Source of the DNA: Nevskia sp.
GTDB lineage: Bacteria; Pseudomonadota; Gammaproteobacteria; Nevskiales; Nevskiaceae
Reading direction: 5' to 3'
Assembly (NCBI GenBank): GCA_031291075.1
Contig: JARLJS010000159.1
Location: 1 to 47,127 of the forward strand
Length of the DNA stretch: 47,127 bases
Shown here piece by piece: positions 2,314-18,747 of the stretch. Each line of letters begins with the position of its first letter. The first letter of the stretch is position 1. The notes beneath the pieces were generated by a model that ran no database searches, was not told the origin of the DNA, and saw only the letters and a list, made by a program, of their open reading frames with translations. The translations under genes were made by a program, and so were the position numbers.

Positions 2314-3648
2314 TCACACCAGCACCACGCCTTCCATCACCGCCGCCGCGCGCAGGTCGCGGTACCAGCGCTCCACCGGGTGTTCCTTGACGAAGCCGTG
2401 GCCGCCGAGCAGTTGCACGCCGTCGTTGCCGATGGTCATGCCCTTGTCGACGCACAGGCGCCGCGCCAGGGCCGTTTCGCGCCCGAACGGGCGGCCGCGC
2501 TCGGCCAGGCTGGCGGCGCGCCAGGTCAGCAGGCGCATGCCCTCCAGCTCGATGGCCATGTTGGCAACGTTGAAGGCCACCGCCTGGCGGTGGCTGATCG
2601 GCTCGCCGAACGCCACGCGCTCGTTGACGTAGGGGATGACGTAGTCCAGCACCGCCTGCGCCGCGCCCACCGACAGCGCGCACCAGCCCAGCCGTGCCAG
2701 GTCCACGCACTCGGCATAAATTTCGGCGCGCGCCTCGCCCAGTAGCGCCGAGGCCGGCACCCGCACGTTGTGCAGCAGCAGCCGGCCGGTGGAGGCGCCG
2801 CGCAGGCCCATCGCCGGTTCGGCCTCGATCGCCAGGCCCTGGGTGGAGGATTCCACGATGAACAAGGCCGGGCCCTTGCCCTCCAGCTCCGCGGCGACGA
2901 TGAACAGCTCGGCTTCCGCCGCACGCGGCACCAGCGACTTCAGGCCCTCCAGCACGTAACCGCCGCCGGCTGCATGGGCCCGGGTCTGCAGGGCGAAAGG
3001 ATCGAACAGCGGCCGCGGCTCCAGGACGGCCAGCGCAGCGGCCGGTGCCTTGTCGCCGGCGAACGCGTAGAGGTACTTGGCCTGCTGCTGTTCGTCGCCC
3101 CACAGCACCAGGGCGGTGCTCACCGCCGACGGCGCCAGGCAGGCCACGGCCAGGCCAAGGTCGCCCTGCGCCAGGGCCTCCGCCACCAGGACGTTGGTGA
3201 CGGCGGAACGCTCGGTGCCGACCCCGCCGAACTCCTCCGGCACGCCCATCAGTGCGATACCCAGCTCCGCGCTCTGCCGCAACAGCTCGGCGGGAGCGGC
3301 GCAGGCGTTGTCCGCGCCCGGGGCGGCGGTGCGCAGTTGCTCCAGCGCGAAGCTCATCACGCTGTCGCGCAGCATCTGCTGTTCCTCGGTCGGCGCCAGG
3401 TCGAACAGCTCCGGCTCGCCCGCGGACGACAGGCGTGCCGGCTTGAGCAGCTTGCGGGTGGCGACAAAGCCGCGGTTGAGGGCGGCGGCGGTGCGGAAGC
3501 CGGTGCGGGTGGCCTGGTAGAGCACCTTCTCGGAAGGTTTGCGCAGCCCCAGGCGGTCGACCAGCGGCATGCCGGCGAAGCGGTTGAGGACGCGCAGGCC
3601 GAGGCCCATCGCGTTATTGGCCATGCTCATGGACTTTGTGTTCTCCAT
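2314..3648 (-). CDS. Acyl-CoA dehydrogenase family protein
   Basis: A 444-residue second acyl-CoA dehydrogenase, clearly diverged from its neighbour. Seen: an N-terminal extension of about 75 residues before the first family-like helix, the C-terminal FAD-domain motif LLGGHGFVKEHPVERWYRD, and an abrupt end at MEGVVLV, where Glu439 takes the place of the usual catalytic Glu. The chain stops only five residues after this Glu, so the terminal helix found in MCAD-type enzymes is missing. Two dehydrogenases in tandem recall heteromeric enzymes such as those of sterol side-chain catabolism, but that pairing is inference. The gene sits between the SRPBCC gene and the 405-residue dehydrogenase. Confidence 0.88.
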   Translation of the reverse strand: MENTKSMSMANNAMGLGLRVLNRFAGMPLVDRLGLRKPSEKVLYQATRTGFRTAAALNRGFVATRKLLKPARLSSAGEPELFDLAPTEEQQMLRDSVMSFALEQLRTAAPGADNACAAPAELLRQSAELGIALMGVPEEFGGVGTERSAVTNVLVAEALAQGDLGLAVACLAPSAVSTALVLWGDEQQQAKYLYAFAGDKAPAAALAVLEPRPLFDPFALQTRAHAAGGGYVLEGLKSLVPRAAEAELFIVAAELEGKGPALFIVESSTQGLAIEAEPAMGLRGASTGRLLLHNVRVPASALLGEARAEIYAECVDLARLGWCALSVGAAQAVLDYVIPYVNERVAFGEPISHRQAVAFNVANMAIELEGMRLLTWRAASLAERGRPFGRETALARRLCVDKGMTIGNDGVQLLGGHGFVKEHPVERWYRDLRAAAVMEGVVLV

Positions 3649-3694: not shown

Positions 3695-4198
3695 CTAGCC
3701 GCCGTGCTTTTTGGCGTGCCGCGCGGCTTTGCCCTTGATCAGGTCTTCGCGCGTCTGCTCGAGGAAGGTATCCACCATGCGGGTGAACTTGCCCTGGATG
3801 AAGGGCGGCGCCACCATGCGGTAGAGCAGGGGTATCGGCACGTCGCGCAACTCGCCCCAGACGCGGAAGCGCAGGTCGGTGTCGTCGCTGGACCGGGCGA
3901 TGCGGAAGTAACCCGAGATGAGGGCGTTGCCCTGGCCCGGCACCGGATCCCAGCGCAGCTCGCCGTGGTCGGCATTGACGTGGAATTTGGCGCCGAACGA
4001 AACGTCGTGGGCGATGTTGGCGAGGCGCGAGCCTACCGTGCGCATCTCCAGGCGATAGGTGTTTTCGCCCAGCTTGACCAGCCGCTTCAGCTTGGGCATG
4101 CGCCCGATGGTGGCCTCGGGGTTGCTCAGCAGCGGCTGCAGCTTCTGGTACGGCAGGGGCACCACGATGCTTCGTTCGATTTCGATGTTGACCTTCAT
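3695..4198 (-). CDS. SRPBCC (START-like) family protein
   Basis: A 167-residue protein read from the ATG at 4198, which has AAGGA six bases upstream. A longer in-frame extension to 4261 has no such site. Seen: a hydrophobic-ligand fold pattern with an opening strand (MKVNIEIERSIVV), a mid helix (PYQKLQPLLSNPEATIG), a central antiparallel sheet and a long C-terminal helix ending in a basic tail (KGKAARHAKKHGG). This is the SRPBCC/polyketide-cyclase-like layout. Its place inside an acyl-CoA operon suggests it binds or delivers a hydrophobic acyl intermediate. The fold call rests on pattern, not on catalytic residues, so the function is open. Confidence 0.72.
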   Translation of the reverse strand: MKVNIEIERSIVVPLPYQKLQPLLSNPEATIGRMPKLKRLVKLGENTYRLEMRTVGSRLANIAHDVSFGAKFHVNADHGELRWDPVPGQGNALISGYFRIARSSDDTDLRFRVWGELRDVPIPLLYRMVAPPFIQGKFTRMVDTFLEQTREDLIKGKAARHAKKHGG

Positions 4199-4345
4199 GG
4201 TCGGTCCTTGGGGTCTGCTCTCCGATGGCGCAGATTGGCAGCCGGGACCGCCGCTGACCATTGCCGCCTTGGCCTCAGGTCATGGCGGCATGGTCAATCG
4301 GCTCCGGCTTCGGTCGCGCGGAAAGATTGCGGGTGCAATGTTCCG

Positions 4346-4365
4346 GTACGGCCCTAGAGCCGTAC
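4346..4365 (-). terminator. Hairpin across the stop of the acyl-CoA synthetase gene
   Basis: GTACGGC (4346-4352) and GCCGTAC (4359-4365) form a perfect 7-bp stem with a 6-base loop that includes the TAG stop of the synthetase gene (4354-4356). No T-tract follows on the minus strand, so this is at best a weak or Rho-assisted stop, or a processing/stability element between the synthetase and the SRPBCC gene. Confidence 0.35.
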
Positions 4366-6159
4366 TTCACCCTTTTGAATCTTCTGGAAAATCTCGGGCG
4401 TGATCGGGCGATAGCCGTTGTCGGCGTCGAGCAGGGCGTACAGCGGGTCGGCGACCTGCGACGGGTCGAAGGCTTCGCGCTTGAGATCGACCTTGCGGTA
4501 CTTGAAGGTGCCGGTGGTCTCATGTTCGGGGCGCAGCCGCAGGAACAGCGGCACCGCGTAGGCCGGCAGCTGCCGGCGCAGGTGCTCGGCCAGGGCTGAG
4601 CCGTCCAGGTGCTCGCCGGCATAGCTCAGCGCCGCCATGCCGGCGCGGCCGTCGGCTCCGGGGACTGTCACGCCGTAGACCACCGCATGCTCGATGCCGG
4701 GAAACCGGTTGAGCGCGGCCTCGACCTCGGTGGTGGCGACGTTCTCGCCCTTCCAGCGGAAGGTGTCGCCGAGGCGGTCGACGAACTGGATGTGGCGCCA
4801 GCCCTGGTCACGCACCAGGTCGCCGGTGTTGAACCAGCAGTCACCTTTCTTGAACACATCGCGCAGCAGCTTGGCCTCGCTCGCCTTGCGGTCGGTATAG
4901 CCGTCGAACGGCGATTTCTCGCTGATCTCGGTGATCAGCAGGCCGGTGCCGCCGCGCTCCACCTTGCTCAGGAAGCCACCGCTGCCGCGCCGCGGCTGCT
5001 CCGCCTCGGCATCGAACTCGACGATGGCGAAGGACATCGGGCAGAAGCCGGCCGTGCGGGACAGGCCGAAGGCGTTGACGAAGGCCAGGTTGCTTTCGCT
5101 GGCGCCGTAGAACTCGTAGATCCTCTCGATGCCGAAGCGCTGCTGGAACTGTTCCCAGATTTCCGGGCGCAGACCGTTGCCGCAGATCAGACGCACCAGG
5201 TGGTCGCGGTCCTGCGGACTGGGGGGACGGTTGAGCAGGTAGCGCAACAGCTCGCCGATGTAGCAGAAGGCCGTGACGTCGTGACGGCGCACCTCGTCCC
5301 AGAAACGCGAGGCGCTGAACTTGCGCCCCAGCACCAGGGTGCAGCCGGCGCCCAGCACCGCGCCCCAGGACACCGTCAGCGCGTTGTTGTGGTAGAGCGG
5401 CAGGGGGCAATAGAACGCATCGTCCGGCTCCAGGCGCAACGCCAGCTGCCCGAGCCCCGCCATGCCGCGCAGCCAGCGGTAGTGGGTCATCACCGAAGCC
5501 TTGGGCAGGCCGGTGGTGCCGGAGGTGAAGATGAAGAAGCAGGGTTGCCGCGACAGCACCCTCTGCGTCTCCGGTGGATTGGCGGCGGATTGGCTGGCGG
5601 CGGCTGCCTGCAGGTCGAGGTAGCCGTCGGGCGCCATGCCGGGGCCGGTCCAGAAATACTGCCGGTCCGGGTCCGCATCGGGGTGATAGGGGGTGGATTG
5701 CAGAGTTTCCCGGCATTCGCCGCCCACCACCACCAGTTTCGGCGCGGTGAGCCTGATGCTGTGCGCCAGGACTTCGCCCTGCTGGTTGTGGTTGAGCATG
5801 GCGGCGACCGCGCCGAGCTTGACGGTGGCCGCCACGCAGGCCAGCACGTCCGGGCGGTTTTCCATCAGGATCGCCACGGTGTCGCCGCTGCCCACGCCGT
5901 TGGCGCGGAACACAGCCGCGATACGGTTGACCCAGCCGTTGAACTCGGCATAGGTCCAGCGCTGCTCGTCGAACACCAGGGCGGTGTGCGCCGGCGTGCG
6001 CTCCGCGACCCGCTCGAGCTGCAGCCCGATGGAGGCCGGCCGGTCCGGTGTCAGGCGCGCCAGGTTCCAGAGTCCCTTGCCGAGCGTCGGCGTTTGCGGC
6101 AGCAGGTGCAGCACGCCCCGCGCCAGGTCGCGCAGATGCACTTCGTCCTTGTGGGTCAC
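4354..6159 (-). CDS. Long-chain acyl-CoA synthetase (FadD6/FATP-like)
   Basis: A 601-residue adenylate-forming enzyme that activates fatty or other hydrophobic carboxylates to acyl-CoA using ATP. Seen: the AMP-binding P-loop FIFTSGTTGLPKASVMTH at about residues 209-226, the YEFYGASESN motif, the hinge region FNTGDLVRDQGWRHIQFVDR, and FRWKGENVATTEVE of the FACS signature. Length and motifs match the FadD6/fatty-acid-transport-protein-like branch. The start is GTG at 6159, with GGAG about ten bases upstream. It is the first gene of the minus-strand lipid unit and would feed the two downstream dehydrogenases. Substrate chain length cannot be told. Confidence 0.92.
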   Translation of the reverse strand: MTHKDEVHLRDLARGVLHLLPQTPTLGKGLWNLARLTPDRPASIGLQLERVAERTPAHTALVFDEQRWTYAEFNGWVNRIAAVFRANGVGSGDTVAILMENRPDVLACVAATVKLGAVAAMLNHNQQGEVLAHSIRLTAPKLVVVGGECRETLQSTPYHPDADPDRQYFWTGPGMAPDGYLDLQAAAASQSAANPPETQRVLSRQPCFFIFTSGTTGLPKASVMTHYRWLRGMAGLGQLALRLEPDDAFYCPLPLYHNNALTVSWGAVLGAGCTLVLGRKFSASRFWDEVRRHDVTAFCYIGELLRYLLNRPPSPQDRDHLVRLICGNGLRPEIWEQFQQRFGIERIYEFYGASESNLAFVNAFGLSRTAGFCPMSFAIVEFDAEAEQPRRGSGGFLSKVERGGTGLLITEISEKSPFDGYTDRKASEAKLLRDVFKKGDCWFNTGDLVRDQGWRHIQFVDRLGDTFRWKGENVATTEVEAALNRFPGIEHAVVYGVTVPGADGRAGMAALSYAGEHLDGSALAEHLRRQLPAYAVPLFLRLRPEHETTGTFKYRKVDLKREAFDPSQVADPLYALLDADNGYRPITPEIFQKIQKGEVRL

Positions 6160-6271: not shown

Positions 6272-8524
6272 CTAGAACGAATAGGCCAGGCTGAGGGAGA
6301 TGTTATCGCGGTCGCGCATCAAGTTGTCCTGGCGTCCGCCGGTGTAGGCGTTGTATTCGATGTGTCCGCTGAGCTGCTGGGTGATGTCGATCTCGGTGGC
6401 GGCCCACAGCGAGGTGCGGCCGGCGATGAAGTTGGCGAACTGCAGCGGGTCGATGCCCTGGAAGTCATGCGACAGGATGATCTGCGGCTTGAAGCTCCAG
6501 CCGAAGATCAGGTCGTTGTATTCCATGCGCACGCCGGTGCGCAGGCCCCAGGCGAACGAAGTGACGTAGCCGTTGCTGTTGTAGGTGGGGTTGAGGGTGA
6601 GGCCGTCCACCCCCGGCGGCAGCCCGCCCGGCTGGCCGGTGCCGTCCTCGCCGGGGCTGCGGTGAGCGCCGATGTTGATGTCGCCGTACTGCTCCTGGTC
6701 CAGCGAGGGCAGGTTGAATACCTGGCAGAAGCCGAACTCCCCGATCAGGATCACCTGGTCGGCGCCGACGAAGTTGTTGTCCTTGGAGATGGCGCGCAGC
6801 GCGGTGAGGTCGAACTGGCCCACCTGCAGGCGGTCGTAGCCGCGCACGTACTGGTTGGGCTGGATCTCGGTGTGACGGTGGCCCTCGAGGTAGTCGGGCA
6901 GCACCACGTGCGCGGGAGGCACGCCGTAGGTGACGGTGCCCAGCGGCGGCTGGAAGGTGGGCAGCGTGAACTTGATCTCGTTGCGCGGAAACGCCGGCTG
7001 GGCGGCGGCGAAGAACAGGTCGGTGAGGTTGACCTGCACCGGCATGTTCGGGCGGAAGGAGTATTCGCCGGCCAGCGACCAGCCGAGCACGGTGGTGTTG
7101 AAGCTCAGGCCGTACATCTGGATGTTGGCCGGATATTCGATGGCCGGCAGCACGGTGTCCGCCGGCATCAGCTCCAGGCCAGGACCGGGGGAGCCGGCCA
7201 GGATGTTGACGATGCCGTCGGCCAGGCCGCGCACGATGGCGCTCTGGTCGAGCAGCTGGCCGAACGCGGCGACATTGGGTGCCTGCACCAGGTTGGCCAG
7301 GTCCTGGATCGGCTGCTGCCGCAGGGTGCCGGTGCCGCCCTTGCAGGCTCGCAGCAGCGTCAGCACGGTGCCGACGCCGGTGCCGCTGACGTTGCGGGCG
7401 CAGGATTCGTTGGCGGCGTAAAGGCTGATGTACGGCGCCCGGCTGTGGTAATTCATGAAATAGGCGCCGAGTTCGGTGCCGTCGTTGAGCCAGTCCGCCA
7501 GGTAGCTCAGGCGCACGCCGTACTGTCCCCCATCCGGCGGCATCAGTGTCGGACCGATCCTGAGGGTACGGGTGGAGCCGGACAGCGTGCTCAGGACGCC
7601 GTTGCTCAGGCCCGGGTTCACCTTGTACTGGCGGTTGGGGTCTTCCGACCACTGGCCGAAGCTGAGGTTGACGTAGTTCTGGTAGCCGGAAAGCAGGTTG
7701 TTGACCGAGTAGAAGCTGCCCACCGCGTCGGCGATGTCCGGCTTGAAGCCGAACTGGTAGAAGCCTTCCACCGTGGCGTGCTCGACCGGGTCGAACGACA
7801 GGTCGATCATCGGCACCGGCTGGAACACTTCGCCGATCTCGCTGCCCGGCATGTGCAGGATGGCGGCGTTGGGCGGGTTGATCTCGTTGATGCTGTTGAA
7901 AGCGACCAGGGTGCTTTCGCCCCAGTGCACGGTTTGTTCGCCGGCGGTGATGGTGCCGTTGTGGCCGTACACCTCGAAGCTGTACTGGGCATAGGCGTCG
8001 AGCAGCTCGGCGCCACGGGCGTACAGGTTGTTGTTGGCCTTGTTGCGCGGCGTGTGCGCCGGCTGGTACATCGTGTTGGGGTGGGTCTCCTCGAAATCGG
8101 CGTTGACCGGGTCGTAGTAGCCGACGCCGCGGGCGCGCAGCAGCCAGTTGTTCCAGGTCAGCGTCCAGTCCGAGTCGAACAGGTTGGTGGCGGCGGTGAT
8201 GTCGTACTGCTTGTAGTTGAGGTCACCCTGGCCGTAGAGATCGACGTAGGCACCCTTGGCGTTGACCAGGCGCTGGTTGGGGCGCGGATCACCGGTGAGG
8301 GACAGGCAGTCGTCCGGCGCGCACAGGTTCTGCTGCCCCGGCACGTTGAGCTTGTAGGTGAGATTGTTGTCGATCGGCTCCAGGCGCATCTGCACGCCGG
8401 TGCTGAAGCGGTTCTTCATCACCAGCGTCGCACCGTCTTCCAGGTCGTAGCTAAGCGCCACCGCCTTCCCGCTGGCCAGGCTTAGCGCGACCACGCCCCA
8501 TACCGGCAATTTGCGCACGGACAC
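6272..8524 (-). CDS. DUF1302 family outer-membrane protein
   Basis: A 750-residue secreted protein. Seen: a signal peptide (hydrophobic stretch followed by GKAVALSYD), many alternating aromatic strands, the DUF1302-type segments (VHWGESTLVAFNSINEINPPN; WGLRTGVRMEYNDLIFGW) and a terminal SLAYSF, whose last Phe is typical of Bam-inserted beta-barrels. DUF1302 proteins usually co-occur with DUF1329, YCF48 and RND proteins in degraders of hydrophobic compounds, and all four are within 12 kb here. The start is GTG at 8524 or, with better spacing to AGGAGG, GTG at 8518. A region near residues 370-450 (ACKGGTGTLRQQPIQDLANL onward) looks like a large extracellular or plug loop. The role is unproven. 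Confidence 0.88.
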   Translation of the reverse strand: MSVRKLPVWGVVALSLASGKAVALSYDLEDGATLVMKNRFSTGVQMRLEPIDNNLTYKLNVPGQQNLCAPDDCLSLTGDPRPNQRLVNAKGAYVDLYGQGDLNYKQYDITAATNLFDSDWTLTWNNWLLRARGVGYYDPVNADFEETHPNTMYQPAHTPRNKANNNLYARGAELLDAYAQYSFEVYGHNGTITAGEQTVHWGESTLVAFNSINEINPPNAAILHMPGSEIGEVFQPVPMIDLSFDPVEHATVEGFYQFGFKPDIADAVGSFYSVNNLLSGYQNYVNLSFGQWSEDPNRQYKVNPGLSNGVLSTLSGSTRTLRIGPTLMPPDGGQYGVRLSYLADWLNDGTELGAYFMNYHSRAPYISLYAANESCARNVSGTGVGTVLTLLRACKGGTGTLRQQPIQDLANLVQAPNVAAFGQLLDQSAIVRGLADGIVNILAGSPGPGLELMPADTVLPAIEYPANIQMYGLSFNTTVLGWSLAGEYSFRPNMPVQVNLTDLFFAAAQPAFPRNEIKFTLPTFQPPLGTVTYGVPPAHVVLPDYLEGHRHTEIQPNQYVRGYDRLQVGQFDLTALRAISKDNNFVGADQVILIGEFGFCQVFNLPSLDQEQYGDINIGAHRSPGEDGTGQPGGLPPGVDGLTLNPTYNSNGYVTSFAWGLRTGVRMEYNDLIFGWSFKPQIILSHDFQGIDPLQFANFIAGRTSLWAATEIDITQQLSGHIEYNAYTGGRQDNLMRDRDNISLSLAYSF

Positions 8525-8701
8525 CCCTCCTGATTTTTCTGATTATTCCGTCCCTTGCGGGTTACGGACATCAATCTAGTTATGTACCGGGTGAAGCTAG
8601 CAGCCCGGTGTTTTCTATCACATTGACCCTGAGGACATCATGCGGCGTCGCTCCGGCTAGTTCGACCACCAGGATTTACCAGGGAACCTCTGAATACTTC
8701 C

Positions 8702-11239
8702 CTAGGCCGCCGACTGGCTGGCGCCCTTCTGCAACAGGCCGAGCAGCCGGTTGCGCCGGTCCATCCGCAGCGAGTCGGCCAGCTCGGCGAGGGTTGCGGA
8801 CCAGGCGGGGTCGGAGCCGACGCTTTCGACCAGCCCGCCCAGTGCGGCGTCGTCCAGGGCGTCCAGCAGGTCCGCCAGGCGCTGCTTGCCGGCGGGGTTC
8901 ATCAGCGCGGTCAGGGGCAGCAGATCGGGCCATAGCCGGTTGCGGGCCGCCGCCTGCAGGATTGCGCTCAGCGAGGAGTCGCTGAGCGATTCGACCAGGC
9001 CGGCCACCCGCTTGCGGGCGGCCTGTCCCATCAGGCCGATCAGGGGCAGCAGGTCGTCCCAGTGCTGCCCCTGATCTGCAACGCGCAGGATCTCGGCCAG
9101 CGCCGGGTCGCTGAGGGACTCGGCCAGGTGGGCCATGCGCTGTCTGCCGGCCGCGTCCATGGTGCCGATCACCGGCAGCAGGTCGCTCCACAGGCGGGCG
9201 TCCTCGGCCGCGCGCAGCACCGCGCCGAGCGCCGGCTCGCTGAGCGAACCCACCAAGGCGCCCAGACGTTGCCGGGCCGGACGCTCCATCCCGCCGATCA
9301 GGGGCAGCAGGTCGTTCCACAGACCACGCTGGCCGGCCGCCTGCACGATACCGGCCAGGCCACCCTCGCTGAGCGATTCCACCAGCCCCGCCACGCGCTG
9401 CCGGGCGGCGGCGTCCATGCGTCCGATCAGGGGGAGCAGGTCGTTCCACAGCGCGTGCTGCTCGGCGATCCGCACGATCTCCGCCAGGGCGGTGCCGCTG
9501 AGCGAAGCGACCAGCCCGCTGAGCCGTTCCTTCGCGGCGGGCTCCATCAGCCCGAGCAGCGGGAGCAGTTTGTGCCACAGCCTGCCTCGTTCGGCCGCCT
9601 GCAGTACGCCGGCCAGGGCGGTATCGCTGAGCGATTCCACCAGTCCGGCGATCCGCTTGCGGGCGCCCGGCACCATGCGGCCGATGAGGGGTAGCAGGTC
9701 GCTCCACAAGCTGCCTTGCTCGGCCGCCTGCACCACGCCGGCGAGGGCGGCATCGCTGAGCGACTCGACCAGGCCGGTGACGCGCTGCCTGGCGGCGGGT
9801 TCCATCAGCTCGATCAGTGGCAGCAGATCGCTCCACAAGCTGCCCTGCTCGGCCGCCCGCAGTACGCCGGCCAGGGCGGCATCGCTGAGCGACTCGACCA
9901 GGCCGGCCAGACGCTGCCGCGCGGCCGGGTCCATGCGGCCGATGAGGGGTAGCAGGTCGCTCCACAAGCTGCCTTGCTCGGCCGCCTGCACCACGCCGGC
10001 GAGGGCTGTGTCGCTGAGCGATTCGACCAGGCCGGTGAGGCGTTGCCTGGCGGCGGGTTCCATCTGGCCGATCAGGGGCAGCAGGTCGTTCCACAAGCGG
10101 CCCTGTTCGGCCGCCTGCACGACGCCGGCGAGAGCGGTGTCGCTGAGCGACTCGACCAAGCCGGCCAGGCGCTGCCGCGCGGCCGGGTCCATGCGGCCGA
10201 TCAGGGGCAGCAGATCGCTCCACAATCCGCGCTGCTCCGTCGCCTGCACGATGCCGGCCAGCGCGGTATCGCTGAGCAGGCTCACCAGTCCGGTCACGCG
10301 CTGTTTGGCGGCAGCTTCCATCAAGCCGATCAGGGGCAGCAGATCGGGCCACAGGCTGTTGTCCTCGGCGGACCTGAGGATGCCCTGCAGCGCCTCGTCG
10401 CTGAGCGTCTCCACGAAGTGCGTGAGGCGCCGCTTGCCGGCGGTTTCCATCAGGCCGATCACCGGCAGGATCTCGTCCCACAGGTCGCAGTTCTGCGAGG
10501 AGACGATCATCTGCCTGACCGCGTCGTCCGGCAGCGCGGCGGCGATATTGGCCATCTTGCGCTGCCAGCCCAGGTCCACCTGGTTCATCAGAGACAGCGC
10601 CTCCGGCCATAGCTCGTCGCCCATCTGGGCGGCGGCGGCCACCAGGTGGCGCAGCCGTTGTTCCGGCAGCACCGCCACGATCTCGTTCAGGCGGGACGGG
10701 TCCTCGACGAAGAAGGCAATGCGCAACAGCGTCTCGTCGTCTTTCTCGGCCTCCAGCACCGCGCGGATCGATTTGAGCGGCACGCTGTTGACGAAGCGCC
10801 CCATCACGATGAATTCCTTGCGCCCGGACAACTCTGCGGCTACTCGCACGACCTCCTCGACCGGCGTGGCGGCGATCAGCTCGGTGGTCTGCCGCGGATC
10901 GAGCAGCACGCACACGTCGGCAAGAAACGGGGTGGGCAGGCGGCGTGTGATGTCCACCGCGCGCTCCACGTTCATCTGCCCGGCGACGCGCGCGCACAGC
11001 AGCGGGCCGAACACCTTCTCGGCAATGCGGGCGATCAGGGCTGCCGGCAGCAGACGGCTGGCCGAGGCCAGGTTGTGCAGCATCTTGCGATCGCCGTCGA
11101 ACAGGCTCGCGGTGGCCTGCTCGCGGAGGGCGCGGATGGCCAGGGCGTCAACGTGGGACAGGAATTCCAGCTGCTCGGGCGGCGTGCCGAGCAGGCGTGC
11201 CAGCTTCATGATTTCGGCGCGGCGGGCGAGGTGGCTCAT
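8702..11239 (-). CDS. Large 43-residue-repeat alpha-helical protein, unknown function
   Basis: An 845-residue protein that I do not recognise. Seen: residues 1 to about 230 are irregular amphipathic helices (MSHLARRAEIMKLARLLG; LLDPRQTTELIAATPVEEVV) without a signal peptide or membrane segment. The rest is about 14 tandem units of 43 residues (129 bp) of the form LVESLSDxALAGVVQAAEQxxLWSDLLPLIGxMxPAARQRLxG. Each unit is predicted to be three helices, so the protein should form an alpha-solenoid. Outer units are degenerate and central ones nearly identical. It lies 16 bp after a 72-residue gene and 177 bp before the DUF1302 gene, all on the same strand. The layout suggests a cytoplasmic scaffold or protein-binding factor for the envelope set; this is inference only. 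Confidence 0.85.
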   Translation of the reverse strand: MSHLARRAEIMKLARLLGTPPEQLEFLSHVDALAIRALREQATASLFDGDRKMLHNLASASRLLPAALIARIAEKVFGPLLCARVAGQMNVERAVDITRRLPTPFLADVCVLLDPRQTTELIAATPVEEVVRVAAELSGRKEFIVMGRFVNSVPLKSIRAVLEAEKDDETLLRIAFFVEDPSRLNEIVAVLPEQRLRHLVAAAAQMGDELWPEALSLMNQVDLGWQRKMANIAAALPDDAVRQMIVSSQNCDLWDEILPVIGLMETAGKRRLTHFVETLSDEALQGILRSAEDNSLWPDLLPLIGLMEAAAKQRVTGLVSLLSDTALAGIVQATEQRGLWSDLLPLIGRMDPAARQRLAGLVESLSDTALAGVVQAAEQGRLWNDLLPLIGQMEPAARQRLTGLVESLSDTALAGVVQAAEQGSLWSDLLPLIGRMDPAARQRLAGLVESLSDAALAGVLRAAEQGSLWSDLLPLIELMEPAARQRVTGLVESLSDAALAGVVQAAEQGSLWSDLLPLIGRMVPGARKRIAGLVESLSDTALAGVLQAAERGRLWHKLLPLLGLMEPAAKERLSGLVASLSGTALAEIVRIAEQHALWNDLLPLIGRMDAAARQRVAGLVESLSEGGLAGIVQAAGQRGLWNDLLPLIGGMERPARQRLGALVGSLSEPALGAVLRAAEDARLWSDLLPVIGTMDAAGRQRMAHLAESLSDPALAEILRVADQGQHWDDLLPLIGLMGQAARKRVAGLVESLSDSSLSAILQAAARNRLWPDLLPLTALMNPAGKQRLADLLDALDDAALGGLVESVGSDPAWSATLAELADSLRMDRRNRLLGLLQKGASQSAA
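8968..10770 (-). repeat. 129-bp tandem coding repeats
   Basis: The repeat protein's units recur every 129 bp. The block CGCTGAGCGA(C/T)TCGACCA, for example, recurs at 129-bp steps (near 9885, 10014 and 10143). Bases 9673-9748 are identical to 9931-10006 (76 bp, offset 258 = two units). This points to recent unit duplication or gene conversion, not ancient repeats under protein-level selection alone. Boundaries are approximate because the outer units are degenerate. Confidence 0.85.
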
Positions 11240-11255
11240 TGCGGGTCCATCCGGT

Positions 11256-11474
11256 TCAACTGTAGAAGATCTTGCGCACGGCGCCGCGCAGCAGCGCCGG
11301 CACGTGATGCAGTGCGCCTTCCATGGCCTGTTCGATCTGTTGACGCTGCAGGCGCCTGGCTTCGCCCAGGGCGGCGGTGAGCCGGTCGAGTTCCTGCGCG
11401 CCCAGCGCCGCGATCGGCCGTGGCGGCTCCGCGCCGAGCTCCTTGACCAGAGCCCGCAGGCTAGTATCGTTCAT
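11256..11474 (-). CDS. Small helical protein, partner of the repeat protein (unknown)
   Basis: A 72-residue protein read from the ATG at 11474. It looks wholly helical: an N-terminal segment (MNDTSLRALVKELGAE), a central charged helix (QELDRLTAALGEARRLQRQQIEQAMEGALHH) and a basic hydrophobic tail (LRGAVRKIFYS). No family is recognised and there is no signal peptide or membrane span. It is 16 bp upstream of the large repeat gene, so the two are very likely co-transcribed. Its only Shine-Dalgarno-like sequence (GGGGAA) lies within a 14-bp dyad just upstream. A longer reading to 11558 is less likely because that segment has no coding character. Confidence 0.7.
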   Translation of the reverse strand: MNDTSLRALVKELGAEPPRPIAALGAQELDRLTAALGEARRLQRQQIEQAMEGALHHVPALLRGAVRKIFYS

Positions 11475-11813
11475 CGATGTCGATTCCCCAGGGAATGTCC
11501 CCAAATGCCCGTTGCGTACGGGCGTTTTAGCATGGTGCGGCAGGCGGCGAGGGGCCAATGGGCCTCGCTCGAATCACCGGCCGGCTTGCGGGAACTTGCT
11601 GGTGATGATGGAAAAGCGTCATTGGCTGTGAAACTTCGTGCGTGTGTCCATACGGCATATCCACCGCGCGACGACGCCTGTTACAGTGCAGAAAATCACG
11701 CGTGGAACCGCGTTGCGCGGCGTTCCAGGTGACAACGATGCGGCGGCAGCTGCGCGGCCGGGGCCCGGATGTCCAGGGCAGCGGCATCCGCCCGACACAA
11801 GGAGGAGTACGAC
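11475..11813. other. Divergent intergenic region, 339 bp
   Basis: This separates the minus-strand small/repeat genes from the plus-strand YCF48/RND genes and should carry both promoters. Visible elements are a 14-bp dyad ATTCCC-CA-GGGAAT at 11483-11496 next to the small gene's start, a short hairpin GCCCGT/ACGGGC at 11507-11523 followed by GTTTT, and a possible minus-10 TTACAGT near 11690 for the plus strand. No protein or RNA gene is supported. Confidence 0.55.
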
Positions 11814-12890
11814 ATGGCTGCCTGCACGCGGGCGAAGGGGAATTGGGGGGCGGCGGCGTTGCTGCTGTCGCTGTTGGCGGGCGCAGGTCCGGCCCAGGCG
11901 ATCGATACGATGGTCCCCCGGCCGGCGGAACCCGCGCCCAAGGCGGCGCACTCGATCCTGCTCGACCTCGCTTTCACCGGCCAGCGTTACGTCAGCGTTG
12001 GACAGCGTGGGGATATCCTGGTTTCGGATGACGCGCGCGAGTGGAAGCAGGTGCCGGGGCCGGTGCGGCAGATGCTGAACCGCGTGCGCTTCGTCGACCA
12101 GCAATACGGCTGGGCGGTGGGCTACGACGGCGTGATCCTGAATACGCGCGACGGCGGCCTCACCTGGATCCTGCAGAACTTCGACCCGAAGGCCGGCCTG
12201 CCGTTCTTCGACGTGGCGTTCCTCGACCGCAGCCATGGTATCGCCGTGGGCGCGCGCGGGCTGCTCAAGCACAGCGACGACGGCGGCGCCAGCTGGCAGG
12301 ACATCAATGCCGACTTCGTCTCCCTGGGCCTGAATCTCTATTCCATCTGCCGTCTCAAGGACGGCACCCTGCTGATCACCGGCGAGCGCGGCATGCTGGC
12401 CCGCTCCGTCGACGGCGGCGCCACCTGGTCGATGCTGCAGTCGCCGTACGCCGGCTCGCTGTTCGGGGCGGTGCCGGACGGCGAGGCGGGGGCCGTGGTG
12501 TTCGGCATGCGCGGCAAGATCTATCGGGTCGAGCACGTTGCCACCGTCCCGACCGAGGATCCGAAGCACTGGGACGAGATGTCGTCGCAGGCCCTCACCG
12601 GCGCCGAGCGGCCTTCCGAGTCGGCGGCGGTGATCAGCGTACCCGGCTGGACGCCGCTGAACTGCCCGGTCAAGCAGGGCCTGTTCGGCGGCGTGCGCAC
12701 CGCCGGCGGCGGTATCGTGCTGGTGGGTGCCGACGGCACCGTGGTGACGGCGGCGGCCGGCGCGACGGAGTTCACCCTGCAGAGCAATCCAAGCAACGTG
12801 CCGTTCGCGGCGGTGCTGCCGCAGAAGGACGGTTTGCTGGTGGTGGGACGTAATGGCGTACAGCATCTGCAGTGGAGCGCGGTTCCATGA
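11814..12890 (+). CDS. YCF48/BNR-like beta-propeller protein
   Basis: A 358-residue exported protein. Seen: a signal peptide (GAAALLLSLLAGAGPAQA, cleavage about residue 29) and repeated blade motifs of the photosystem-assembly YCF48/BNR kind: SVGQRGDILVSDD, AVGYDGVILNTRDGGLTW, AVGARGLLKHSDDGGASW, ITGERGMLARSVDGGATW and FGMRGKIYR. The start is the ATG at 11814, eight bases after a strong AAGGAGG (11799-11805). Its stop overlaps the start of the RND transporter gene by four bases (ATGA). Homologues sit beside RND transporters of this type and probably act as periplasmic partners; the exact role is unknown. Confidence 0.9.
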   Translation: MAACTRAKGNWGAAALLLSLLAGAGPAQAIDTMVPRPAEPAPKAAHSILLDLAFTGQRYVSVGQRGDILVSDDAREWKQVPGPVRQMLNRVRFVDQQYGWAVGYDGVILNTRDGGLTWILQNFDPKAGLPFFDVAFLDRSHGIAVGARGLLKHSDDGGASWQDINADFVSLGLNLYSICRLKDGTLLITGERGMLARSVDGGATWSMLQSPYAGSLFGAVPDGEAGAVVFGMRGKIYRVEHVATVPTEDPKHWDEMSSQALTGAERPSESAAVISVPGWTPLNCPVKQGLFGGVRTAGGGIVLVGADGTVVTAAAGATEFTLQSNPSNVPFAAVLPQKDGLLVVGRNGVQHLQWSAVP

Positions 12891-15409
12891 GCAATACCCA
12901 GGGGCAGGCCCTTACGTTCACGCAGAAGATCCTGCGGTTCGTCGAGCCCATCATCTTCGGCCGGCGCCGGCTGATGCTGGTCGTGCTCGGCCTGATCACG
13001 CTGTTCTTCGGCGTGGAGGCGATGCAGGCGCAGATCGACGCCGGCTGGCTCAAGATGGTGCCGCTGAGCCATCCCTACATGCAGGTGTTCCGCAAGTACT
13101 ACAAGGACTTCGGCAGCGCCAACACGGTGCTGATCGAGCTGCACCAAAAACAGGGCGACATCTACAACGAAAAGTTCCTCAACGCCTTGGAGAAGGTCAC
13201 CGACGACGTGTTCCTGATGCCGGGCGTGGACCGCTCGCACGTGCTGTCGCTGTTCACACCCAACGTCTACTATCTCGAGGTCACCGAGGACGGCCTGGCC
13301 GGCTCCAACGTGATCCCGGCGAACTACCAGCCCAGCCCGGAGATGTTCGCCAAGGTACGCTCGAACGTGGCCAAGGCCAGCGTGATCGGCCGCCTGGTAT
13401 CCAAGGATGAGAAGGGCGCGATGGTGGTCGCCGAGCTGCTCGACGACGTCGACGCCAACAGCGCCCAGCCGACGTTGAAGGACTTCGTCGAGAAGGGCCA
13501 CCGTATCAACGCCATCCTGACCAGCCCCGAGCACAAGGGCCTGCGCGAAGTGGCTGGCCAGGTGTGGGACGTGGTGCGGGAGCCGCCCTCGGCCGGGGGC
13601 AAGCTGTCCTACCAGGCGGTGGCGCAGCGGCTGGAGCAGATCCGCCACACCTACGAGACCGACAACATCGAGATCCACATCGTCGGCTTCGCCAAGGTGG
13701 TGGGCGACCTGTCCGATGCCGCGCTGGAGGTGGTGGGCTTCTTCTTCGTCGCCCTCATCCTCACCAGCCTGCTGCTGTGGCTGTACGTCGGCTCTTTGCG
13801 GCTGGCCATGCTGCCGATGGGTTGCGCCATCGTCTGCATCATCTGGGAATTCGGCGCGCTGCGCGCGGCCGGCTTCGGCCTCGACCCGTTCGCCATGCTG
13901 GTGCCGTTCCTGGTGCTGGCGGTGAGCGTCAGCCACGGCGTGCAGTACGTCAATTCCTGGGCCGACGAGGTGGCCAAGGGCGAAAGCAGCTACAACGCCT
14001 CGCTCTACACCTTCCGCGCGCTCGCCATCGCCGGCACCATCGCCATCCTGGCCGACGTGGCGGGCGTGGCCACCATCTACCTGATCCCGATCGAGATCAT
14101 CCGCGAGATGTCGCTCAACGCGGTGTTCGGCATGCTGGCGATCATCATCACCAACAAGGTGCTGATGCCGATCTGGCTGTCATACGTCAAGCTCGGCGAC
14201 GTCGAGGGCTTCAAGCGCGCCCAGGCCAAGCGCGAGGCCTTTGGCGACACCTTGTGGCGGCGCCTGGCCAAGGTGACGCACCCGAAGCCGGCCCTGACCG
14301 TGCTGGTAATCTCCGGCGCGCTGCTGGGCTGGGCGGTGTGGATGTATCCCAAGCTGCAGATCGGCGACGTCCAGGCCGGCGTGCCGGAGCTGCGTCCCAA
14401 CTCGCGCCTGAACCAGGACGCGCGCGTGATCTCCGACAATTACGCCATCGGCATCGACATGTTCAAGGTCATCGCCGAAGGCAAGCCCGACGGCTGCGTC
14501 GACTACGACGAGATGGCCGAGATCGACCATTTCTCCTGGCGCATGGAAAACACCGCCGGTGTGCAGGGCGTGATGTCGCTGCTGACCTACGCCAAGGTGG
14601 CCAACAGCGGCCTCAACGAGATGCGCCTCAACGCCGAGGTGGTGCCGCGCAATCCGCATTCGCTGGTGGCGGCCACCTCGCTGCTGCCGCCCAACAAGGA
14701 TTTCGCCAACACGGACTGCAGCGCGCTGCCGGTGTTCATCTTCACCCAGGACCACCGCGCCCAGACCATCGCCCACATCGTCGACGAGGTGAAGCGCTTC
14801 AACGCTCAGAACAAGGCCGATGGCGGCGAGGTCAACTTCGCCCTGGCCAGTGGCAACGTCGGCGTGATGGCGGCGTCCAACGAGGTGGTGAAGGCGCAGG
14901 AATACCGCGTGGTGCTGTGGGTCTACGCGGTGATCATCGTGTTCCTGTTCCTGTCCTATCGCACGCTGTCGGGTGTCTTGTGCGTGATCCTGCCGCTGGG
15001 CCTGGTGTCCGCGCTCGGCTACGCCTTCATGATCCTGCTCGGCATCGGCATGAAGGTGTCGACCCTGCCGGTGGTGTCGCTGGCGGTCGGTATCGGCGTG
15101 GACTACGGCATCTACATCTACAGCATGCTGTCCGACGGTATCCGCCGCGGCCTGTCGATCGAAGAGGCGTACTACCAGACCCTGCGCCGCACCGGCAAGG
15201 CGGTGATCTTCATCGGCGTCGCCCTCGGCAGTACCGTCAGCACCTGGCTGTTCTCCAAGATCCAGTTCCAGGCCGACATGGGCGTGCTGCTGGTGTTCCT
15301 GTTCACCGCCAACATGTTCGGCGCGATCATCGTGCTGCCGGCGTTCGCGCACTACCTGGCGGACGAGGAGAAGAAGCACGCGGGCAAGCCTACGCTGATC
15401 GGGCACTGA
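12887..15409 (+). CDS. RND superfamily (MMPL/HpnN-like) exporter
   Basis: An 840-residue inner-membrane transporter with the duplicated RND plan. Seen: TM1 after a short N-terminus (RRRLMLVVLGLITLFFGV), a periplasmic domain of about 230 residues, a five-helix sterol-sensing-like bundle (VGFFFVALILTSLLLWLYVG through IEIIREMSLNAVFGMLAIII), then a second TM/periplasmic/five-TM half (VVSLAVGIGVDYGIYIYSML). It starts at ATG 12887 in a 4-base overlap with the YCF48 gene, with GGAG nine bases before. The size, half that of a full AcrB pair, fits hydrophobic-lipid exporters of the HpnN/MMPL class. It probably uses proton motive force to move a hydrophobic molecule across the envelope. Confidence 0.92.
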   Translation: MSNTQGQALTFTQKILRFVEPIIFGRRRLMLVVLGLITLFFGVEAMQAQIDAGWLKMVPLSHPYMQVFRKYYKDFGSANTVLIELHQKQGDIYNEKFLNALEKVTDDVFLMPGVDRSHVLSLFTPNVYYLEVTEDGLAGSNVIPANYQPSPEMFAKVRSNVAKASVIGRLVSKDEKGAMVVAELLDDVDANSAQPTLKDFVEKGHRINAILTSPEHKGLREVAGQVWDVVREPPSAGGKLSYQAVAQRLEQIRHTYETDNIEIHIVGFAKVVGDLSDAALEVVGFFFVALILTSLLLWLYVGSLRLAMLPMGCAIVCIIWEFGALRAAGFGLDPFAMLVPFLVLAVSVSHGVQYVNSWADEVAKGESSYNASLYTFRALAIAGTIAILADVAGVATIYLIPIEIIREMSLNAVFGMLAIIITNKVLMPIWLSYVKLGDVEGFKRAQAKREAFGDTLWRRLAKVTHPKPALTVLVISGALLGWAVWMYPKLQIGDVQAGVPELRPNSRLNQDARVISDNYAIGIDMFKVIAEGKPDGCVDYDEMAEIDHFSWRMENTAGVQGVMSLLTYAKVANSGLNEMRLNAEVVPRNPHSLVAATSLLPPNKDFANTDCSALPVFIFTQDHRAQTIAHIVDEVKRFNAQNKADGGEVNFALASGNVGVMAASNEVVKAQEYRVVLWVYAVIIVFLFLSYRTLSGVLCVILPLGLVSALGYAFMILLGIGMKVSTLPVVSLAVGIGVDYGIYIYSMLSDGIRRGLSIEEAYYQTLRRTGKAVIFIGVALGSTVSTWLFSKIQFQADMGVLLVFLFTANMFGAIIVLPAFAHYLADEEKKHAGKPTLIGH

Positions 15410-17046: not shown

Positions 17047-18747
17047 TCAGTGGTTCTGCCCCAAGCGGCGCAGGTTGGCCGGGTCGAAGTGGCTGTCCTC
17101 GAACGTGATGTTGAAGTCCAGGATCTGCGCCTCGTTGGTCAGGGTGGTGGCGAAATAACGCTTGCTCTGCAGGTCGTAGATCAGCTCCGGCAGCGCGCTC
17201 ACCGTCGGGATGAACGGCGCCGTGAGCAGGTGGCCCTCCTGCACTTTCCACAGCTGGTCGCGGTTGTCGTAGTTCTCCACCACCGCGATTGCCCAGCTGT
17301 CCTCGTCGATGTAGAACACGCGCTTCTTGAAGACGTGGCGCACGTTGGGCTTGAGGTCGGCTTCCACCACCCACACCCGGTGCAGTTCGTAGCGGCTGTT
17401 CTTCTGGTTGATGTGGAACGGCGTCAGCAGGGTCTTGTAGGTGAACGCCGGGCCGTTGATGAGGAAGGAGTTGTAGGGGATCAGCAGGTCCTTCTTGCCC
17501 AGCAGCTTCCAGTCGTAGCGGTCCAGGGCGCCGTTGAACATGTCCACCTGGTCGGTGAGCTGCTCGCCGTCGGTGCCCGGATAGGGGTTATCGTAGCCCA
17601 CGTCGGGAGCGCGGTTGACGCGGCCCAGGCCTGGGTCGTAGATCCAGGCGGCACGGTTGCCGATGAAGGGCTCGTGGGCCAGGATGATCTCGCCGGCCAC
17701 GCGCGGCGGCGACAGTACCTGCGACAGGTAGAAGGCGAAGATCTTGTTGCCCGGCGCCGGCGGCTCCCTCAGGTTGGCGTACTTGAACTTCACGTCTTCC
17801 TGCAGCTTGGTGATGACGAAGCTGCCGTCCGGCTTGACGATGGCCTGGTCGTTGTAGCGGCGCGCGGCCGAGCCGCGGAAGCGCAGCTTGTGGTTCCACA
17901 TCACTTCGGCGCCGTTCTTGGGGATCGGGAAGGGGAAGCCCAGCTTGGCGTCGAGCACGTTGTCGGTGCCTTCCAGGTGCGCGGCGGTGGCGTTCTTCAC
18001 CGTGGCCTCGTTCACCGCGTCGGGAAAGAAGGCCGTGCGGATCGACGGATACACCACCATCTTGTAGTCCGGGTAGGCCTTGAACAGCGCCTGGTGGCCC
18101 TGGCTGAGCTTGTCGGCGTACTGCGCCATGTTCGCCGGGGTGATGGTGTACAGCGGCTGGTCGGCATTGTTGAGCTTGCCCAGGACCTGCGACAGCTGCT
18201 GCTTGAACAGGGCGAGCAGGGCGTTGATTTGTTCCTCGCTGGCCTTTTCCGGATCGGTGTTCAGGTTCTCATGACCGACCAGCACGAAGGTCTTGCGCAG
18301 GTCGTTGAGCCTTTGCTTGTAGTCCGGAGAGAGTTCGGTGTAGTACTTCTTCCAGTTCGCCACCACGTCTTTCTGCGCCGCTTCCAGCCGGCCACGGATG
18401 TCCTTGGGTTCGCCGGCGACGCCGTCGTCGAGCATCTTGCGCAGTTCCGGCGGGCCGTTCTTCTGGAAGTCCTTGTACTGGTCCCACAGGTCCACCAGCA
18501 CCTGGCGCGAGATATTCCTCGGCGTGAGCTTGGTGCCCTTGTATAAGACCGGCAGGTCGACGTCGAAATTGGTCGAGCCGGTGTACTCGGGGATGGTGCC
18601 GTCGGCATTGCCGGCGCGGGTGGAGCCGACGTAGGTGAGATCCTTGCCCAGGCGCGCGGCCTCGTCGGCGGAAACCCCGGCCCAGGCCGAAGCCGTGGCG
18701 CAGAGGAAGGAAAAGGCGAAAACCGCCCTGACGCGGGTGTGCAGCAT
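17047..18747 (-). CDS. DUF1329 family exported protein with a large insertion
   Basis: A 566-residue periplasmic or outer-membrane-associated protein. Seen: a signal peptide (VFAFSFLCATASAWA), the DUF1329 opening (SADEAARLGKDLTYVGSTRAGNADGTIP), and later family segments (PFPIPKNGAEVMWNHKLRFRG; LGRVNRAPDVGYDNPYPGTDG; VFYIDEDSWAIAVVENYD). Family members known to me are about 450 residues. Here a charged helical stretch at about residues 75-195 (NISRQVLVDLWDQYKDFQKN to KQQLSQVLGKLNNAD) separates the first motif from TITPANMAQY. GAGGAG precedes the ATG by ten bases. It is the usual partner of DUF1302 and may pass a hydrophobic ligand through the periplasm; that role is unproven. Confidence 0.9.
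   Translation of the reverse strand: MLHTRVRAVFAFSFLCATASAWAGVSADEAARLGKDLTYVGSTRAGNADGTIPEYTGSTNFDVDLPVLYKGTKLTPRNISRQVLVDLWDQYKDFQKNGPPELRKMLDDGVAGEPKDIRGRLEAAQKDVVANWKKYYTELSPDYKQRLNDLRKTFVLVGHENLNTDPEKASEEQINALLALFKQQLSQVLGKLNNADQPLYTITPANMAQYADKLSQGHQALFKAYPDYKMVVYPSIRTAFFPDAVNEATVKNATAAHLEGTDNVLDAKLGFPFPIPKNGAEVMWNHKLRFRGSAARRYNDQAIVKPDGSFVITKLQEDVKFKYANLREPPAPGNKIFAFYLSQVLSPPRVAGEIILAHEPFIGNRAAWIYDPGLGRVNRAPDVGYDNPYPGTDGEQLTDQVDMFNGALDRYDWKLLGKKDLLIPYNSFLINGPAFTYKTLLTPFHINQKNSRYELHRVWVVEADLKPNVRHVFKKRVFYIDEDSWAIAVVENYDNRDQLWKVQEGHLLTAPFIPTVSALPELIYDLQSKRYFATTLTNEAQILDFNITFEDSHFDPANLRRLGQNH

Follow-up and report, generated by a model that had tools for sequence, protein, structure and literature searches.

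A conserved gene pair encoding a 43-residue-repeat, predicted alpha-solenoid protein and a small helical partner in Nevskia sp. and other bacteria, with a possible role in neutral-lipid metabolism

A 47,127-nucleotide (nt) stretch of Nevskia sp. DNA (Nevskiaceae; contig JARLJS010000159.1 of assembly GCA_031291075.1), here called the window, was analyzed with emphasis on two neighboring genes that we name REP and SMALL. REP encodes a protein of 845 amino acids (aa) that consists largely of 43-residue repeats, and SMALL encodes a 72-aa protein. The two genes occur together in several phyla, almost always in genomes that also encode wax-ester/triacylglycerol synthases. The features of the pair are listed below with their positions in the window, strand and basis.

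8702-11239, (-): REP, 845-aa protein with a predicted alpha-solenoid fold (open reading frame (ORF) with ATG start; homologues; AlphaFold2 model)
10595-11239, (-): REP N-terminal domain (N domain), residues 1-215 (alignment; weak MgtE_N similarity)
8789-10594, (-): REP array, 14 tandem 43-residue three-helix units, residues 216-817 (self-identity, Tandem Repeats Finder, model)
8705-8788, (-): REP C-terminal cap, residues 818-845 (model; predicted local distance difference test score (pLDDT) of the final block 57)
11256-11474, (-): SMALL, helical partner of 72 aa whose C-terminal helix is basic and amphipathic (ORF with ATG start; profile, hhalign, model)

In the window, SMALL lies upstream of REP on the same strand and 16 nt separate the two genes. 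Within the genus, family and order of the window, 44 of 61 genomes had a match to the window REP, or 43 of 60 when the window's own genome is left aside. A profile of the N domain, the most conserved part of REP in the alignment, resulted in 77 loci in named genomes, mainly of Gammaproteobacteria and Actinomycetota; the set contains near-copies, for example five from Nocardia cyriacigeorgica. The gammaproteobacterial hosts were Nevskiaceae and their near kin, Salinisphaerales, Alcanivorax and Moraxellaceae. The actinomycetotal hosts were Nocardia, Gordonia, Skermania, Antrihabitans, Hoyosella, Mycobacterium intermedium, Streptomyces, Yinghuangia, Actinokineospora and Solirubrobacterales, and the remaining ones were two bins placed in Myxococcota and one unclassified bin. 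Culturable carriers of the pair include Solimonas soli DSM 21787, Panacagrimonas perspica DSM 26377 and Alcanivorax hongdengensis A-11-3. For SMALL, a profile was made from the window and 57 of the 77 loci, with E-values that relate to upstream ORFs only. It recognized a short ORF immediately before REP in 75 of the 77 loci, including 18 of the 20 loci that had been left out of the model; the small partner proposed by a first-pass annotation of the window is therefore real. SMALL overlapped the start of REP in 36 of these 75 loci, by 4 nt in 32 and by 1 nt in four. The loci without a match were L104, whose REP lies at a contig end, and L140, which has the partner but with an interrupted frame; the match in L133 was weak and partial (E 3.8e-4) and the frame ends early (L152). 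In both of these Acinetobacter loci (L133/L152 and L140) the frame of the small partner is interrupted and REP is open. Among the closer relatives of the window, 40 stretches were fetched; one had no N-domain hit, and in all of the other 39 a small ORF preceded REP (23 by tblastn, 16 by eye). The distances between SMALL sequences and between REP N domains were correlated (r 0.84 over 57 loci; none of 500 permutations was as high), as expected for genes staying together. That REP and SMALL form a conserved two-gene unit across several phyla is well supported.

The REP N-domain tree was broadly ordered by phylum, with 4 changes for Pseudomonadota and 3 for Actinomycetota compared with shuffled means of ∼25; its deep branches were weak. 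Some genomes carried two REP copies that lay far apart in the tree (Skermania, L095/L135; Panacagrimonas, L069/L092 and L070/L093), and the genomes G021 and G032 had 4 and 5 matches to the window REP, some of which were pieces of one gene. The N domain of a locus labeled Verrucomicrobia (L067) was 85% identical to a Nevskia one, and the label looks wrong. A single-sequence search of genome contigs with the whole window REP confirmed no locus, five of the six patterns lying in repeats, and plasmid searches with the Antrihabitans REP and the window N domain gave no match.

The repeats were apparent from the self-identity of REP, which was 43% at a lag of 43 residues and 44% at a lag of 86, the next best value among lags 20-119 being 13%. 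Residues 216-817 hold 14 helical units in an exact 43-residue register, as the first-pass annotation had approximately described, a count that could be off because the assembly is a draft. The pairwise identity of the units had a mean of 53% and a maximum of 91%, and the middle units had a consensus of approximately PLIGxMxPAARQRLxGLVESLSDxALAGVVQAAEQxxLWxDLL. At the DNA level, Tandem Repeats Finder reported a 129-nt period with 10.7 copies and 74% matches. Adjacent near-identical units (4-7) differed chiefly at codon position 3 (4, 2 and 13 differences at positions 1, 2 and 3 between units 4 and 5), as expected for a translated array under protein constraint; in more diverged adjacent units the third-position bias was not clear (26, 14 and 22 differences between units 1 and 2). 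An assembly artefact or a chance ORF was considered as the source of REP, and the homologues, the codon-position pattern and the model speak against both. The opposite strand carries an 865-aa ORF covering the array (9135-11732, (+)), in our judgement a by-product of the high G+C content.

The AlphaFold2 model of REP, based on an alignment of 46 homologues, was all helix with three helices per unit (mean pLDDT 91.6, predicted template modeling score 0.72). The tandem helical units were stacked into a superhelix, which places the predicted model in the alpha-solenoid fold class. The first-pass annotation had set a distinct N-terminal domain before the units; such an N-terminal part exists, but it was wholly helical in the model and graded into the units. 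No membrane span was obvious in REP, the highest 19-residue Kyte-Doolittle window being 1.42, in line with the earlier description of the protein as cytoplasmic-looking. REP was 254 to 647 aa long over the 77 loci and up to 527 aa in the 39 loci of the relatives, and none was longer than the window REP. A profile of the unit, derived from the window REP, matched 103 of 117 family sequences (independent E < 0.01), a set in which the same gene is present twice in a number of cases. The 43-residue unit thus belongs to the family and the number of units changes; the array is expanded in the lineage of the window.

SMALL was modeled as four helices (residues 2-13, 19-22, 26-55 and 60-71; pLDDT 88.7). 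Its profile aligned to REP residues 1-90 in hhalign with an E-value of 6.5e-5 and a probability of 64%. When rerun, the score was 24.6, compared with a maximum of 21.3 (next 17.0) in 100 column-shuffled targets. Reversed profiles scored 12.8 and 12.6, and N-domain windows starting at position 41 or later scored at most 13.2, the similarity being confined to the REP N terminus in these windows. With a 32-member N-domain profile the E-value was 5.1e-4 and the probability 31%. The order of the helices agreed between the model of SMALL and that of the REP N terminus, where helices were placed at residues 3-17, 21-27, 32-48 plus 51-63, and 66-86. Judged from the profiles and models, SMALL probably arose by partial duplication of REP, from its first ∼80 residues. 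Over 58 sequences, the last ∼20 residues of SMALL had a mean hydrophobic moment of 0.325 vs. 0.162 (standard deviation 0.010) in shuffles and a net charge of +2.7. The values of other segments were 0.118 vs. 0.102 for the first 30 residues and 0.170 vs. 0.135 for residues 26-50. Such a predicted amphipathic, basic C-terminal helix fits contact with a lipid surface and equally a protein interface.

Neither the window REP nor SMALL had a convincing named family in Pfam or NCBIfam, which agrees with the first-pass annotation, where no named family with this unit had been known. When 47 REP N domains were compared with NCBIfam (E up to 0.01), three families were matched by one member each, none of them convincing, and 45 SMALL sequences compared with Pfam (E up to 0.1) gave at most two members per family, with a best E of 0.0046. 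The HEAT, ARM and PPR class resembles REP as an all-helical array, but REP has three helices per 43-residue unit, and its Pfam matches at E up to 1 included no HEAT, ARM, PPR or TPR family. Three unrelated Pfam families matched the REP repeat region at E < 1e-4, two of them (DUF3331 and CSN8_PSD8_EIF3K) just over their cut-off and each of these two with no single stretch passing alone; we judge these matches to be repeat-driven chance. Searches of solved structures with the sequence of the window REP gave nothing significant (best E 0.064). Foldseek found no match for the SMALL model at an E-value of 0.001, and for the REP model the matches in the PDB and among viral models were generic helical repeats throughout, all with low TM-scores. 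The PDB matches of REP included karyopherins, PPR10 and FANCI, with query-normalized TM-scores of 0.07-0.28 among the 50 matches listed. As these matches were generic and their TM-scores low, no function was drawn from them. No paper was recognized as dealing with the REP/SMALL family in the literature, which could be searched only without a family name or locus tag, so that absence is not demonstrable.

The sole consistent family signal in REP was MgtE_N (PF03448), a superhelix of short helices and in this similar to REP, with matches in 27 of the 32 N domains compared at E-values of 0.1 or lower (best E 5.8e-6). The N-domain profile gave nothing significant among solved structures, its two best hits being magnesium transporter chains (E 0.016 and 0.2). 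In one reading, the pair would be a regulatory module linked to membranes or ions and related to the cytoplasmic N domain of MgtE, with no role in lipid metabolism. We consider this highly improbable, as the match of the window REP (residues 83-138) reached 20.0 bits and thus lay under the curated Pfam cut-off of 25.9, and helical superhelices easily match one another. REP has neither an obvious membrane span nor, among its Pfam matches, a CBS or MgtE transmembrane domain; in contrast to MgtE, it combines an array of 43-residue units with a separate partner in place of the transporter part.

WS/DGAT proteins are the wax-ester/triacylglycerol synthase family. Co-occurrence was examined in 45 of the genomes that contain the 77 loci; the remaining 32 loci were for the most part additional ones of the Nevskiaceae type, further strains of a species already included or a second locus in the same genome. 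WS/DGAT (PF03007) was present in 44 of these 45 REP-bearing genomes. PhaC_N was present in 16 of them, with six partial low-scoring matches, and polyhydroxyalkanoate storage was rejected as the shared trait. An even sample of the class of the window, 276 genomes of Gammaproteobacteria, contained WS/DGAT in 15 and REP in five, and four of the five REP genomes had both (p 2.8e-5 in a Fisher test, which ignores kinship); three of these four came from the order of the window itself. In a sample of 246 Actinomycetota (the phylum of Mycobacterium intermedium), WS/DGAT was present in 89 genomes and REP in eight, all eight of which had both (p 2.4e-4 in the same test), G426 being counted on two partial REP matches only. 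Among the relatives of the window, WS/DGAT was found in 59 of 61 genomes and REP in 44 of 61, and both genomes without WS/DGAT were also without REP; the window's own genome had nine WS/DGAT matches. The same test within the genus Acinetobacter was uninformative, WS/DGAT being near universal (108/109) and REP present in 18 of 109. In the samples tested, REP nearly implies WS/DGAT, and the reverse does not hold.

The surroundings of the pair, fetched as up to ∼10 kb on each side and in some cases less, were searched by tblastn with three WS/DGAT proteins in 121 stretches (the window, L026-L142 and L146-L148). A WS/DGAT gene was found in three of them, from an Alcanivorax bin (L094), a Solirubrobacteraceae bin (L091) and an Actinomycetota bin (L096), the last of which is close to L091 in the N-domain tree; L091 and L096 are both of the Solirubrobacterales type. 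In each, the WS/DGAT gene is the immediate divergent neighbor of SMALL, ∼90 to 260 nt upstream (3 of 77 loci, two phyla). The two WS/DGAT domains were each recognized by Pfam, with E-values of 1.2e-48 and 4e-25 in L091 and of 2.7e-77 and 6.8e-37 in L094. The frame in L096 (456-1499, (-)) is incomplete: of the 263 positions of the catalytic domain it covers only the first 153 (E 3.9e-40) and continues with a reading similar to the major facilitator superfamily, owing to either a frame break or an assembly fault. A rough estimate, assuming 2-4 copies, ∼3000 genes and two flanking places, gives ∼0.1-0.2 WS/DGAT neighbors by chance over the 77 loci. The three loci are probably two independent cases, and their adjacency led us to judge a role in neutral-lipid metabolism slightly likelier. 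The link of REP and SMALL to lipids rests on this correlation and on the three adjacent loci.

In the window itself, the pair is surrounded by the following features.

11475-11768: divergent intergenic region between SMALL and the YCF48 gene, 294 nt, presumed promoter region (gene layout)
6272-8524, (-): DUF1302 outer-membrane protein, AmeA-like, local neighbor (Pfam PF06980, E 7.8e-131)
11769-12890, (+): YCF48-like protein, AmeC-like, local neighbor (Pfam PF14870, E 5.6e-19)
12872-15409, (+): MMPL/RND (resistance-nodulation-division) transporter, AmeD-like, local neighbor (Pfam PF03176, E 5.5e-22)
17047-18747, (-): DUF1329/LolA-like protein, AmeB-like, local neighbor (Pfam PF07044, E 1.5e-125)
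4354-6159, (-): long-chain acyl-CoA synthetase (FACL), same strand as the pair and downstream of it (NCBIfam NF006134, E 7.3e-252, above its cut-off)
3695-4261, (-): ORF188, unnamed 188-aa ORF flanked by the acyl-CoA synthetase gene and an acyl-CoA dehydrogenase gene, same strand, further downstream (ORF list)
2314-3648, (-): acyl-CoA dehydrogenase (ACAD) 2, same strand, further downstream (NCBIfam/Pfam searches)
1071-2288, (-): acyl-CoA dehydrogenase 1, same strand, further downstream (NCBIfam/Pfam searches)

The ORFs and Pfam matches confirmed the first-pass annotation in placing a 72-residue helical protein before REP and the pair between the DUF1302 and the YCF48 and RND genes. A promoter scan of positions 8400-12000 gave only two weak consensus matches, putative promoters at most. 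ORF188 had no Pfam match at 1e-5 and none in NCBIfam at E 1; it was also present near the pair in L031, L032 and L039, and the set of acyl-CoA dehydrogenase and ORF188 genes in L031 and L039. Elsewhere in the window, a 1230-aa DUF748/AsmA-like protein (34165-37857, (-)) adjoins an EAL protein with a cyclic-nucleotide-binding domain (32848-34158, (-)), and a BBP2-type porin-like protein (PF07642, E 7.8e-21) is encoded at 44918-46651 (+).

The DUF1302, DUF1329, YCF48 and RND genes correspond to AmeA, AmeB, AmeC and AmeD of AmeABCD, which PMC6394551 presents as a four-gene monoterpene tolerance system of the HAE3 RND type in Castellaniella. A related Pseudomonas putida set, PP_0765/PP_0766 with PP_2018/PP_2019, is reported to be necessary for growth on Tween 20 (PMC10866462). 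The first-pass annotation had proposed REP as a scaffold or assembly factor for this transport set, and a cytoplasmic factor of an AmeABCD-type cassette would account for the 12 of 77 loci in which at least three cassette genes lie near the pair, on its strand, and for the 21 of 77 with at least one. L039 even joins the pair and the cassette in a single run (FACL-ORF188-ACAD-ACAD-SMALL-REP-DUF1302-DUF1329-YCF48-RND), parts of which are present in L027 and L031. All of these loci were of the Nevskiales type, four of them being labeled otherwise (L067 as Verrucomicrobia, L077 as Lysobacteraceae, L073 and L108 only as Gammaproteobacteria), and elsewhere REP homologues stood in many other contexts. 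The presence of the pair together with DUF1302, DUF1329, YCF48 and RND was not constant: REP and SMALL mostly occur without the cassette, and DUF1329 was found in only 9 of the 45 pair-bearing genomes, the 36 without a match including Actinomycetota. In six genomes of the Nevskiales-type group there were 12-25 DUF1329 matches per genome, so that some chance proximity to the pair is expected; the 3.4-Mb genome of a Salinisphaerales bin (G342, locus L097) had 25. The Castellaniella set is described in the available part of its paper as four genes, without REP and SMALL, and the P. putida set likewise without such a protein, neither genome having been searched for REP. As a general account, a role in the cassette therefore fails, and we regard it as improbable. 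The REP homologues do stand in unrelated contexts, yet the small partner is present there as well.

No neighbor family constant across lineages was found outside the Nevskiales-type group. A patatin-like lipase gene, which speaks for a lipid link, adjoins REP in the Moraxellaceae loci and an alpha/beta hydrolase gene lies near the pair in Solirubrobacterales and Streptomyces. In Actinokineospora, a TIR-domain protein (L105, 8144-9403, (-)) adjoins the pair, with a gene of the same cluster (cluster 45) beside it. The survey used a home-made ORF picker that at times took an antisense frame, for example one without a Pfam match opposite the true WS/DGAT gene of L094. In another explanation, the pair would regulate or scaffold general acyl-CoA and fatty-acid oxidation or the use of hydrophobic substrates, with WS/DGAT as a mere marker of lifestyle. 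The acyl-CoA synthetase and dehydrogenases that neighbor the pair in the window fit this. In the vicinity of several further loci there are genes for acyl-CoA dehydrogenase, enoyl-CoA hydratase, alpha/beta hydrolase or patatin, which fit it as well. Such genes are, however, probably abundant in the host genomes, which makes their proximity weak evidence; no single enzyme family is a constant neighbor, and the WS/DGAT adjacency in L091, L094 and L096 favors storage. We hold this explanation to be unlikely on balance.

The reading that we favor, tentatively and with considerable doubt left, is that REP and SMALL are a cytoplasmic two-protein scaffold or regulator in neutral-lipid (wax ester/triacylglycerol) metabolism, perhaps at lipid inclusions. 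It is close to the alternative suggestion of the first-pass annotation, a regulator of lipid enzymes. SMALL would probably be a second copy of REP residues 1 to ∼80. Both proteins would probably be made together and bind each other in the cytoplasm, the models being those of single chains. REP would be a long alpha-solenoid scaffold whose length changes by the addition of 43-residue three-helix units. In bacteria that have WS/DGAT, the pair would serve neutral-lipid metabolism, most likely sitting at lipid inclusions or on the inner membrane at its cytoplasmic side, where the basic amphipathic C-terminal helix of SMALL would touch the lipid surface and the REP solenoid would hold or regulate acyl-lipid enzymes. 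In Nevskiales, the pair may have been drawn into gene runs for the uptake or export of hydrophobic substrates and their activation. A more far-reaching form of this, in which REP and SMALL would serve the lipid inclusions of bacteria across phyla as a dedicated scaffold or coat module, with the length of REP tuned by unit duplication and SMALL as lipid-surface anchor or capping partner, appears doubtful to us.

Several observations weigh against a role in neutral-lipid metabolism. The evidence for it is mostly correlation, and the Fisher tests take no account of kinship. The main threat to the storage reading is lifestyle as a confounder, since users of lipids and hydrocarbons often have WS/DGAT. 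In several host clades WS/DGAT is common or universal and hence has no need of REP, and shared lifestyle or ancestry could explain the link. Two REP-bearing genomes had no WS/DGAT match. One is a 2.5-Mb uncultured Acinetobacter metagenome-assembled genome (G376). The other, G245, has divergent REP copies (138 bits), of which one starts at a contig end (L147) and the other has no recognized partner (L148). A WS/DGAT gene lay near the pair in only 3 of the 121 stretches, and in none of the Nevskiales stretches or the window, and no neighbor family was constant across lineages. The similarity between SMALL and REP is modest (probability 64%, or 31% with the other profile). The amphipathic helix of SMALL could equally pack against protein, and other segments of SMALL also exceed their shuffles, although by far less.

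To our knowledge, the oil inclusions of bacteria have few known proteins with a structural or scaffolding role. With the proteins of the mycobacterial and rhodococcal inclusion proteomes, REP and SMALL would share the proposed site of action and hosts that bear WS/DGAT. The available part of the paper on these proteomes (PMC10699116) names PspA- and PPE15-type inclusion proteins in its reference list and states that knowledge of what inclusion-associated proteins are and do is very limited. Nothing like REP or SMALL was recognized in it, by description only and with no comparison of sequences. The same holds for the inclusion literature as represented by the available parts of PMC10699116 and PMC11980559, a weak negative as locus tags are not comparable.

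REP and SMALL are a concrete, deletable candidate: they have no convincing named family, are kept together across phyla, are almost confined to WS/DGAT genomes among those sampled and in a few loci directly adjoin a WS/DGAT gene. If the proposed role is true, the pair would be an unrecognized component of the handling of oil stores in bacteria. The REP family would deserve a name without the lipid link as well, as an alpha-solenoid that grows by 43-residue steps and has a partner resembling its own N terminus.

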